From: Aliarcobacter cryaerophilus ATCC 43158
GTDB taxonomy: Bacteria; Campylobacterota; Campylobacteria; Campylobacterales; Arcobacteraceae
NCBI RefSeq assembly: GCF_003660105.1
Contig: NZ_CP032823.1
Span: 1,860,001-1,924,000, forward strand
Reading direction: 5' to 3'
Length of the DNA: 64,000 nucleotides
Shown piece by piece: positions 17,636-23,849 of the stretch. A model generated the notes under the pieces. It ran no database searches. It worked only from the letters and a program-made list of their open reading frames with translations, and was not told the DNA's origin. The position numbers and the translations under genes are program-made. The stretch's first letter is position 1. The number at the start of each line of letters is the position of its first letter.

Positions 17636-18520
17636 ATGAAACACCTAATTCGTACTTCCGACTTTACAAAAGAAGAAATATTTAAAATTTTTGATGATGC
17701 TAGAGAGTTTAAAGCTACTAAATTTAGCAGAATTTTAGAAGGTAAAATTATTGTTACACTATTTTTTGAAAATTCAACAAGAACGAGAAGCTCTTTTGAA
17801 ATAGCTGCAAAAAGACTAGGAGCTGAAGTTGTAAATCTTGATGTTGGTACATCTTCACAAAAAAAAGGTGAAACAATGTACGATACTGTTTCAAATATAA
17901 ATGCGATGAACCCAGATGCAATAATTATTAGACATAGTGTTCATGGACTTCCAGAAAGTTTGATAGGTTATGTTGATTGTCCTATAATAAATGCAGGTGA
18001 TGGAAGACACTCACATCCAACTCAAGCTTTATTAGACCTTTTTACAATTAATGAATATTTTGATGGAAAAACTGAAGGTAAAAAAATAGCAATTGTAGGT
18101 GATGTAAAAAATTCAAGAGTTGCAGGAAGTAATAGAAGATTACTACCTAGATTTGGAATAGACGTAAATTTAGTAGCTCCTGACTGTTTTAAATACGAAG
18201 GAGATGAATTTAAACAGTTTGATAATATTCAAGATATAGTTGATGATATGGATATTGTTATGAGTTTAAGAAGCCAACTAGAACGCCACAATATTACATA
18301 TTTTGAATCACTTCAAGAGTATGCAAAAGATTTTTGTATTACAAGTGAATTAATGGAGAGAAAAGAGTTTTTACTTCTTCATCCAGGACCAGTAAACAGA
18401 AATATTGATATAACTGATGAAGTTTTAAAACATCCAAGATGCAAAGTTTTAGAGCAAGTTACAAATGGAGTTGCAATAAGAGCTGCTATTTTGAAAAAAC
18501 TAATCCTAGAGGATAAATAA
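17636..18520 (+). CDS. pyrB: Aspartate carbamoyltransferase catalytic subunit
   Basis: Condenses carbamoyl phosphate with aspartate, the committed pyrimidine step. The 294-residue protein has the carbamoyl-phosphate loop FFENSTRTRSSFE near residue 43, KKGETMYDTV with the active-site Lys, HPTQALLDLFT, and the C-terminal LLHPGPVNR. An AAAGGAAAA site precedes the ATG. No regulatory subunit (pyrI) is adjacent. pabB begins directly after the stop in the same frame. Confidence 0.96.
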   Translation: MKHLIRTSDFTKEEIFKIFDDAREFKATKFSRILEGKIIVTLFFENSTRTRSSFEIAAKRLGAEVVNLDVGTSSQKKGETMYDTVSNINAMNPDAIIIRHSVHGLPESLIGYVDCPIINAGDGRHSHPTQALLDLFTINEYFDGKTEGKKIAIVGDVKNSRVAGSNRRLLPRFGIDVNLVAPDCFKYEGDEFKQFDNIQDIVDDMDIVMSLRSQLERHNITYFESLQEYAKDFCITSELMERKEFLLLHPGPVNRNIDITDEVLKHPRCKVLEQVTNGVAIRAAILKKLILEDK

Positions 18521-19477
18521 ATATTTACTAATTTTAAAGATAATCTAAATGAATTTGGCTCTTCAAAAGAGCCTTTTTTATTTTTAATCTCATATGATTT
18601 AAAAAAAATATATATAGAAAAACTAAACAATCTCTCACAAAATATAAAATTTGAAATAGATAGTAAAAATATAAAAAATATAAAAGATTATACTTTAAAG
18701 AAATATCCAATTAGTTTCAAAGAGTACAAAATAAAATTTGATTTAATTCAAGATGAGATAAAAAAGGGAAATAGCTATCTATTAAATTTAACTACAAAAA
18801 CAAAAATAGATACAAACCTAAGTTTAGATGAGATTTATGAAGCAGCGAGTTCTTTGTTAAAACTAAGAGTAAAAATAGATGATTTAGATTTTGTATGCTT
18901 TAGCCCTGAAAAATTTATAGATATAAAAGATAATAAAATCTATACATATCCTATGAAAGGAACTATTGATACAAATTTAGATGATGCAAAAAATCTATTA
19001 CTTAACAGTAAAAAAGAGTTAGCAGAACATACTATGGTTGTTGATTTACTAAGAAATGATTTAGGAAAAGTTGCAAAAAATATAAAAGTGGAAGAGTTTA
19101 GAACTTTTAGTAAAATAAGTACAAAAAATAGTGAACTTTTTCAAACAAGCTCAATTATTTCTGGAGATTTAGAAAACAATTGGCAAGAAAAAATAGGAGA
19201 TATTTTTTCAAATATTCTTCCTGCTGGAAGTATTACAGGTACTCCAAAAAAATCTACCATAGAAATTTTAAAAAATATAGAAAGCTATGAAAGAGGATTT
19301 TATAGTGGAATTTTTGGTGTTTTTGATGGAATAAATCTTCAAAGTTTTGTACTCATTAGATTTATTGAAAATATAAACAAAGAACTCTTCTATAAAAGTG
19401 GTGGTGGAATTACAAGTGACAGCATTACAAAACAAGAGTATGAAGAACTTTTAAATAAAGTTTATCTACCATTTTAA
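18521..19477 (+). CDS. pabB: Aminodeoxychorismate synthase component I, apparently starting at ATA
   Basis: Makes 4-amino-4-deoxychorismate for folate. The frame is open from the pyrB stop (18518-18520) to 19477, 318 residues. Family features include the start of the chorismate-binding domain (FKEYKIKFDLIQDEIKKGNS, from about 18716), HTMVVDLLRNDLGKVA and LPAGSITGTPKKSTIEIL. The first conventional in-frame start, TTG at 18854, would delete the beginning of that domain. An ATA at 18521 sits 7 bases after an ideal AGAGGA site, as if ATG had changed to ATA. Translation from a non-canonical start, or a start-codon mutation, is inferred. pabC follows after 9 bases. Confidence 0.8.
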   Translation: MFTNFKDNLNEFGSSKEPFLFLISYDLKKIYIEKLNNLSQNIKFEIDSKNIKNIKDYTLKKYPISFKEYKIKFDLIQDEIKKGNSYLLNLTTKTKIDTNLSLDEIYEAASSLLKLRVKIDDLDFVCFSPEKFIDIKDNKIYTYPMKGTIDTNLDDAKNLLLNSKKELAEHTMVVDLLRNDLGKVAKNIKVEEFRTFSKISTKNSELFQTSSIISGDLENNWQEKIGDIFSNILPAGSITGTPKKSTIEILKNIESYERGFYSGIFGVFDGINLQSFVLIRFIENINKELFYKSGGGITSDSITKQEYEELLNKVYLPF

Positions 19478-20101: not shown

Positions 20102-21199
20102 CTATTTTGCCATTTGAGAAAACTCTTTACAAATACTAGAGTTTGAAGTTGGTGTAAATTCACTACTTATTTCATTCTTATTTTTATATTTTAAAGCAGC
20201 AGCAGTATCATTAAATACTTTAATATGAGTTACATCTGCAATATTTTTAATATCTTCGCTTATCTTAAAATCACCATTTATACTACAAATCTCTACAGTT
20301 TTCTCACCTCTAATAGGGTGGCTTCCATATTTAATAGATTTAATCTTATCTACTTTTACACCACTTGCAAGTGCAAGTAAGTAGTGTCCTAAACCAACTG
20401 CAAGCATTGGAATATTTTCATCTATTAATATTTTTATTTCAGCTATTTCATCAGTTAAAATATTTGGATTTCCAGCACCACTACTTAAAACTACTCCACT
20501 TATTTTACCTGCTTTAAAGTTGTTGATTATATCTTCTGCCTTTGTAGAAGAGGGAACTACTTCAACTTCAAATCCTAACTCAACAAGTTCATTTAAAAAT
20601 GACTTTTTAACTCCATAATCAATTACTAGAACTTTTTTATCACTCATTTGTGCTTTATTATACTCTCCAGTTTCATGATTCCAAACACCTGATTTATGAA
20701 TATAAGCCTCTTTTGTTGAGCTCTCTTTTACAAAATTGATTTCATCATATTTTTTTGCTTCACTTAATTTTTTTGCTAGTTCATCTTTTGAAGAGATTTG
20801 TGTAGATGCAATCATCATCATACTTCCCTCTTCTCTTACGATTTTTGTCAAGAATCTTGTATCAATATCACAAATTCCAACAACATTTTGCTCTATTAAA
20901 AAATCTTTTAGACTCATATCGGCTCTATAGTTTGAATAAAAATCATGATAATTTCTCACAATTATACCTTTTGCATGAGCTTTAGAACTTTCCATATCAA
21001 CTCTATTTGCACCTGTATTTCCTATTTCTACAGCTGTAAAATTGATAAATAAGCCATTATTTGAAGGGTCTGTAATAATCTCTTGTTGTCCAAATGTTGA
21101 GTTATTATAAACCAGTTTTCCAACAGCAGTTGTATCTGCACCAAAAGAGTTTGCCTCTAAAAATATCCCGTTTTCTAAATAAATATATACTTTTTGCAT
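20102..21199 (-). CDS. carA: Carbamoyl-phosphate synthase small-chain-like protein without glutaminase residues
   Basis: The N-terminal CarA domain is well preserved (EIITDPSNNGLFI, GNTGANRVDMESSKAHAKGI, DIDTRFLTKIVREEGSM). The class I glutaminase domain is present in outline but degenerate. The nucleophile block usually read as GICLGHQ is AVGLGHY, with Gly269 in place of Cys. The C-terminal HPE motif that supplies His and Glu is absent; the corresponding tail reads EISSEFTPTSNSS. Glutamine hydrolysis is therefore not expected. It may support an ammonia-dependent synthetase or have another role. The ATG at 21199 overlaps the upstream stop (TGATG); a TTG three bases earlier is possible. Confidence 0.85.
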   Translation of the reverse strand: MQKVYIYLENGIFLEANSFGADTTAVGKLVYNNSTFGQQEIITDPSNNGLFINFTAVEIGNTGANRVDMESSKAHAKGIIVRNYHDFYSNYRADMSLKDFLIEQNVVGICDIDTRFLTKIVREEGSMMMIASTQISSKDELAKKLSEAKKYDEINFVKESSTKEAYIHKSGVWNHETGEYNKAQMSDKKVLVIDYGVKKSFLNELVELGFEVEVVPSSTKAEDIINNFKAGKISGVVLSSGAGNPNILTDEIAEIKILIDENIPMLAVGLGHYLLALASGVKVDKIKSIKYGSHPIRGEKTVEICSINGDFKISEDIKNIADVTHIKVFNDTAAALKYKNKNEISSEFTPTSNSSICKEFSQMAK

Positions 21200-21750
21200 C
21201 AAATTAATCCTCTTTTTATTAACTCTTCTTCATAAAGTCTATGATAAACCAAATCATAGTCCTCAGTACCTGGAATTAGCTTTCTTTTATAATTTTTAAG
21301 TTTAGCTAATACTTCACCATCTGCTTTTTCAAACCCTTTAATGAAATCATCCAAAGAACCAAATATCACATTTTTTATTTGGTTATCTGAACAAGTAAAA
21401 TGTATATAATCCTCCTCCCATAGATAATCTAATATTTTGTGAGCAATATCAGAGAATCTATCTTCATTGTTTAAAATAACTCCAAAATCATTTGCAAGTC
21501 TTTTTTTTGTCATCCAGAAAAGTTGCCTTCTATCAGCATTTAGATACTCAATTTCGTCTGTTTGAGAATCTAAAATCTCTTCTACTTTTTCATCCAAAGA
21601 TTGCTCTTTAAGAATATCTTCATCTAAAATTCTTTCAACTTGCTCTTCTATACTAGATTTGTCTTTTCTTGCTTCTATGAAATCACAAGTGATTAAATCT
21701 CTCGTAATTCTTCTTGAAAGGTATGTAGTTTGGTGTAGCTTTAATCTCAT
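21199..21750 (-). CDS. DUF507 family protein
   Basis: A 183-residue, Glu/Asp/Lys-rich helical protein matching DUF507: MRLKLHQTTYLSRRITRDLI at the start, a middle DEKVEEILDSQ segment and a C-terminal KKRLANDFGVILNNEDRFSDIAHKILDYLWEEDYIHF block. The family is widespread in Campylobacterota and its function is unknown. It starts 1 base after the purA stop and overlaps the next gene by 1 base, so it is part of the purA-to-carA leftward operon. Confidence 0.85.
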   Translation of the reverse strand: MRLKLHQTTYLSRRITRDLITCDFIEARKDKSSIEEQVERILDEDILKEQSLDEKVEEILDSQTDEIEYLNADRRQLFWMTKKRLANDFGVILNNEDRFSDIAHKILDYLWEEDYIHFTCSDNQIKNVIFGSLDDFIKGFEKADGEVLAKLKNYKRKLIPGTEDYDLVYHRLYEEELIKRGLI

Positions 21751-21751
21751 T

Positions 21752-23849
<2,098 letters not shown>

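Follow-up and report, generated by a model that had tools for sequence, protein, structure and literature searches.

Described carbamoyl-phosphate synthetases

All types of carbamoyl-phosphate synthetase (CPS) except CPS1 use glutamine, and the glutaminase-like domain of human CPS1 is dead, its catalytic Cys being replaced by Ser (PMC4655335). For bacterial CPSases the view that glutamine is the physiological donor is an extension from Escherichia coli, whose enzyme accepts ammonia only when its concentration is very high (PMC6245113). Engineered E. coli enzymes in which the tunnel from the glutamine site to the synthetase is blocked or perforated have lost the use of glutamine while their use of external ammonia is normal (PMC4655335). 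Ammonia-based carbamoyl phosphate synthesis has been described in a prokaryote, in the carbamate kinase-like CPS of Pyrococcus (PMC6022934; PMC6245113).

The window analysed here is a stretch of 64,000 nucleotides from Aliarcobacter cryaerophilus ATCC 43158 (contig NZ_CP032823.1, positions 1,860,001 to 1,924,000), and all coordinates given below are those of the window. It carries a carA gene (20102..21199, minus strand) that encodes a glutaminase-dead CPS small subunit and is the only carA of the genome; thirteen orthologues, the present one included, share the same loss. No earlier report of a glutaminase-dead bacterial CarA or of an Arcobacter CPS was found in the open-access literature, subscription papers and bioRxiv preprints lying outside the search.

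As in vertebrate mitochondrial CPS1, a glutaminase-like fold that is kept but dead is paired with an active synthetase. CPS1, however, is one fused polypeptide that serves ureagenesis and needs N-acetylglutamate, whereas the clade has two separate genes; moreover, its CarA has lost all three triad residues together with the tunnel loop, and the origin is independent, the gene being a vertically inherited Arcobacteraceae gene. With E. coli CarAB, the glutamine-dependent CPS II, the clade shares the two-subunit architecture, a full-length CarB and the CarA fold, but the E. coli protein has the catalytic Cys, His and Glu, while the clade CarA is without these and falls under the cut-off of the model TIGR01368. 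The Pyrococcus enzyme differs in belonging to an unrelated family, of which no match above the family cut-off was found in the clade.

The carA gene and its domains

The carA ORF extends on the minus strand from the ATG at 21199 to the TAG at 20102-20104, encodes 365 amino acids and is open throughout; an alternative in-frame TTG start at 21202 would add one residue. The ATG overlaps the stop codon of the DUF507 gene (21199..21750, minus strand) as TGATG. Both the coupling to DUF507 and the undamaged frame, as claimed in a preliminary description of this DNA, were thus borne out, the latter also by the absence of frameshifts in 13 separately sequenced species.

Pfam analysis placed the N-terminal CPSase small-chain domain (PF00988, E 2.1e-37) at 20813..21181 and a class-I GATase domain at 20105..20629, both on the minus strand. 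According to Pfam and the structure model, the latter is a pseudo-glutaminase domain in which the fold is retained and the catalytic residues are gone; its PF00117 match (E 5.3e-18) reaches only profile position 113 of 190. Both domains occur in one chain in 13/13 clade members. The general CarA model NF009475 is still passed by the clade proteins, while TIGR01368, the model of the glutamine-hydrolysing small subunit, gave 275.8-276.2 bits in three clade members, below the curated cut-off of 307.35 bits, and 442.6 bits in an intact sister. Present annotation therefore masks the dead CarA; in the genome paper of A. thereius, whose membership of the clade is inferred, the protein is entered as an ordinary CPS small chain (PMC5495459).

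Loss of the catalytic triad

Alignment of the CarA sequences revealed that the nucleophile motif is AVGLGHY, with Gly aligned to Cys269 of E. coli. The Gly codon (GGT, 20393..20395, minus strand) corresponds to Gly in all 13 clade members and to Cys in 36/36 other aligned relatives. The segment that carries His353-Pro-Glu355 reads SSEFTPTSN------S here and SVQHHPEASPGPHES in the sisters, FTPTSNS (20138..20158, minus strand) replacing HHPEAS..., so that His353 and Glu355 are lost and E. coli residues 358-363 are deleted. Position 353 is Thr, Ser or Asn in the clade (His in 0/13) and position 355 is Ile, Thr, Val or Pro (Glu in 0/13). The oxyanion-side loop, GPGDP in all intact relatives, aligned with GAGNP (20465..20479, minus strand); the further changes are P242A, D244N, Q273Y and H352F, and position 292 is deleted in addition to the six residues 358-363 (E. 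coli numbering). The Gly in place of the nucleophilic Cys and the missing C-terminal HPE, on which the preliminary description had been based, were accordingly both recovered in the alignment. Judged from the residues alone, the alignment shows that glutaminase chemistry by the known mechanism would be impossible in the CarA of the clade.

A glycine residue is unable to serve as a nucleophile. It could still be argued that glutamine remains the donor, either through an unusual nucleophile elsewhere in CarA or through TrpG, HisH, PurQ, GuaA or an unknown glutaminase docking on CarB, since bacterial CPS is accepted to take its nitrogen from glutamine (PMC6245113) and the genome has five further class-I glutaminases that are intact (TrpG/PabA, GuaA, PyrG, HisH and PurQ), each with its Cys and His-Pro-Glu. 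These five, however, match their own known enzymes, while in CarA all three triad positions are lost, no other residue stands in for the Cys and the tunnel loop is missing, and we regard a glutamine-fed enzyme as very improbable. The glutaminase domain of PyrG (L171; 35439..36134, plus strand), with GICLG and HPE intact, served as an internal control within the window. The earlier inference that the change is specific to CarA, drawn from pyrG alone, thus extends to all five, and a general decay of glutaminases is ruled out.

Distribution and orthology

The source genome (2.1 Mb, 99.99% complete) contains exactly one carA and one carB, which are separate genes more than 900 kb apart; a second carA with Cys, His and Glu, which the preliminary description had left to be looked for in the complete genome, does not occur there. 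A CarA match was obtained in 102 of 104 Arcobacteraceae genomes. Those with the dead CarA comprise 13 genomes of one GTDB genus, including the source, with full-length matches to the query at 61-100% identity, and among them are A. vitoriensis, A. vandammei and an uncultured Aliarcobacter. Among named relatives, Arcobacter (Aliarcobacter) cryaerophilus gv. crypticus LMG 9065 is the nearest, its CarA being 97% identical.

The Cys/His/Glu triad is uniform in the 36 other aligned sequences, 17 from sisters of the same genus and 19 from other genera. In a separate collection of 80 named Campylobacterota CarA loci, 76 had Cys/His/Glu and the four exceptions were the four Aliarcobacter of the dead clade; the survey was limited to Campylobacterota CarA, independent losses elsewhere being outside its scope. 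As to whether the loss extends across the Arcobacteraceae, a point raised at the outset, it is fixed in one Aliarcobacter clade and is not family-wide. Relatives with a normal Cys and HPE, which would have counted against the original observation, do exist, but only outside this clade.

In the CarA tree and in the CarB tree alike the thirteen formed one group, with support 100/100; the stem branch of the clade measured 0.44 changes per column for CarA vs 0.07 for CarB. The gene order AT-V, hisZ, purA, DUF507, carA, in which purA (21752..23002, minus strand) is a conserved upstream neighbour, is identical in the intact and the dead clades. Because this synteny is shared, CarA is a vertically inherited orthologue and not a paralogue, and the DUF507 neighbour kept in both clades shows the same orthology. 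Horizontal replacement of carA is ruled out by the synteny and the trees, and a second carA or paralogue by the single PF00988 match in the genome. An artefact of sequencing, assembly or misannotation can be practically dismissed, as can a divergent paralogue accompanied by a normal carA that escaped detection: the change is present in 13 separately sequenced species, the gene order is conserved with intact relatives, there is only one PF00988 match in a 99.99% complete genome, and no evidence in favour of either possibility was found.

The uncultured Aliarcobacter (L014, genome G024) has its CarA and CarB on the longest branch of the clade, and its CarA keeps Gln273; it may retain a state partway through the loss of the glutaminase.

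Predicted structure

The AlphaFold2 model of CarA, built with 44 family sequences, reached a pLDDT of 90 and a pTM of 0.90. It superimposed on E. coli CarA with Z 47-48 and 1.7 A over about 360 residues (361 aligned at Z 48); superposition on the inactive glutaminase part of human CPS1 (5dot) gave Z 41.3 and 2.1 A. The fold is thus predicted to be kept over the full length of the protein. Nominally the top match was 1m6v_B, the E. coli G359F tunnel mutant (Z 48.3), level with other entries for E. coli CarA. Residue 359, which falls inside the stretch 358-363 deleted in the clade, is one that we take to lie within the ammonia tunnel on the CarA side, from the title of entry 1m6v and from PMC4655335. 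Like the clade protein, G359F carries a change on the CarA side of this tunnel, but it is an engineered single change with the triad intact, whereas in the clade residues 358-363 are naturally deleted and the triad is gone.

Selection on carA

None of the 13 clade carA genes carries a stop or a frameshift, and the length of the protein is 364-366 aa throughout. In a simple neutral simulation at modest divergence the mean was 2 to 12 stops per carA gene; since several stops were simulated and none is seen in 13 lineages, carA is not neutral. Pairwise dN/dS of CarA within the clade was 0.22 in the N-terminal half and 0.35 in the GATase half, compared with 0.09 and 0.07 among the intact sisters, while that of CarB stayed at 0.11 and 0.09. 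The N-terminal domain, described as intact in the preliminary description, is therefore present but not untouched (0.22 vs 0.09).

At 73 query positions a residue that is invariant among the sisters occurs in no clade member. The clade is itself invariant for a new residue at 26 of the 73, including C269G, P242A and D244N, so that the changed state of CarA is itself constrained. The pattern resembles re-fixation more than drift.

The rise in dN/dS of the GATase domain from 0.07 to 0.35 and the long CarA stem branch (0.44 vs 0.07 in CarB) would also be expected if CarA were decaying, the glutaminase being dispensable in ammonia-rich habitats, the protein heading for loss and CarB acting alone. 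The uninterrupted genes of constant length in 13 species, the many invariant columns in both CarA domains and the intact predicted fold make such a course quite improbable.

Ser47, Lys202, Gly241, Gly243, Leu270 and Asn311, several of the positions that contact glutamine in the E. coli CarA structure, are kept in 13/13 clade members. Some ligand could thus still be bound, a counterpoint to a CarA serving ammonia only, and the dead domain might be a regulatory sensor whose remaining pocket binds a metabolite, glutamine or some other, and so modulates a CarB that uses ammonia. The persistence of these six residues while the catalytic ones are gone, and the 26 re-fixed columns, agree with such a role. 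On the other hand, the kept residues may be structural, 12/13 members have Tyr or Phe in place of Gln273, which also contacts glutamine in the E. coli protein, and there are no ligand data; a sensor appears unlikely, though it is not to be dismissed.

The CarB partner and the consumers of carbamoyl phosphate

The single-copy carB encodes proteins that are 92-98% identical to that of the query within the clade, except in G024 (86%), and 84-86% identical to the CarB of intact-CarA sisters. The full-length CarB passes both curated large-subunit models, including TIGR01369. Comparison of the two groups revealed 24 CarB columns at which the intact sisters are invariant and the dead clade has entirely different residues, 21 of which lie in residues 1-552 (Fisher P 2.6e-4); three small control groups were without such a skew. 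Residues 1-552 hold the carboxyphosphate and oligomerisation domains, which contact the small subunit (PMC6245113). The skew suggests that CarB may have been adjusted to the changed CarA and that the CarA-CarB complex would persist, the contacts being unmapped on coordinates.

Aspartate carbamoyltransferase, encoded in the window by pyrB (17636..18520, plus strand), consumes carbamoyl phosphate and is present throughout the genus, and ornithine carbamoyltransferase is present in 31/31 genus genomes. For carbamate kinase only weak partial matches were obtained in the 31 genomes, none above the cut-off. Since both transferases are present and carbamate kinase is absent, CarB must feed both the arginine and the pyrimidine pathway. 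Carbamate kinase as a true source of carbamoyl phosphate is thereby ruled out, as is an explanation by a lost arginine branch. As far as its sequence allows, CarB would meet what is expected of a competent synthetase and the sole source of carbamoyl phosphate.

Directly after the pyrB stop the pabB frame (18521-18853 and 18854-19477, plus strand) is already open, a long way before its first ATG/GTG/TTG, the TTG at 18854, and the upstream part has PabB-like sequence. The start of pabB is thus unusual or lies inside pyrB, so that automatic calls cut PabB to 207 aa.

Nitrogen assimilation

The large-chain domain of GOGAT was found in 0/13 dead-CarA genomes and in 17/17 intact-CarA genomes of the genus. 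Over all 104 Arcobacteraceae genomes it is present in 89 of the 91 outside the clade, the two exceptions being G017 (54% complete and without a CarA match) and G101 (fragmented, CarA partial). Glutamate dehydrogenase is present in 13/13 clade genomes. Genome reduction as the cause of GOGAT loss is ruled out, because the genomes of genus g5, of 1.3-1.5 Mb, keep GOGAT; of the four g5 genomes, the two included in the CarA alignment have an intact CarA. As the losses of the CarA triad and of GOGAT fall on one branch, the association amounts to one independent case.

Amt copies number 0-1 in the dead clade vs 1-4 in the intact-CarA sisters, and the scarcity or absence of these transporters fits an ammonia-rich niche without proving it. 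No Amt-family match was obtained in three clade members, G014, G026 and G024, the last a draft genome 87% complete. The A. thereius genome encodes ammonia-producing aspartase, asparaginase and serine deaminase (PMC5495459), and that of A. butzleri nitrite reduction to ammonia and urease (PMC2147049); for A. butzleri, as for A. thereius, clade membership is inferred. The picture that emerges is one of organisms that assimilate ammonia directly and not via the glutamine amide.

Proposed function

We propose that CarAB of this Aliarcobacter clade is naturally ammonia-dependent, CarA serving as a structural pseudo-glutaminase, and that this arrangement arose by convergence with vertebrate CPS1; we put the probability of this reading at roughly 0.83, ammonia use being inferred without an assay. 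The resemblance to ammonia-dependent CPS already suggested in the preliminary description is supported by the sole carA, the clade-fixed loss of the triad and its specificity to CarA. The intact CarB, the absence of carbamate kinase, the two pathways that need carbamoyl phosphate and the missing GOGAT also fit the ammonia-dependent reading.

According to this proposal, CarA, having lost the triad and part of the ammonia-tunnel loop, would be retained as structural partner of CarB, which would take free NH3 from the cytoplasm and convert it through carbamate to carbamoyl phosphate, supplying both pyrB and argF. The NH3 may enter near the missing 358-363 loop, or along the subunit interface as proposed for CPS1. 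Complex formation, NH3 as the in vivo donor and the site of its entry are all inferred. Because the E. coli enzyme needs very high ammonia, the clade enzyme needs either a better affinity for ammonia or ammonia-rich cells, neither of which has been shown.

More tentatively, and as a possibility that we do not favour at present, the clade could represent a bacterial CPS I, in which a clade-wide switch from glutamine to free ammonia was accompanied by rebuilding of the pseudo-glutaminase, with its tunnel loop deleted and its interface re-fixed jointly with CarB, into an inlet for ammonia or an allosteric sensor, within a broader retreat from assimilation through the glutamine amide of which the loss of GOGAT would be a mark.

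Biological significance

The loss of GOGAT with retention of glutamate dehydrogenase in the dead-CarA clade points to a switch in nitrogen assimilation that is worth a separate study. The clade opens the question why a dead glutaminase subunit is kept, and it links the evolution of an enzyme to the loss of GOGAT. It would constitute a natural counter-case, in culturable bacteria, to the notion that bacterial CPS is glutamine-only, and an independent evolutionary replicate of the transition from CPS II to CPS I, with close intact relatives for comparison.
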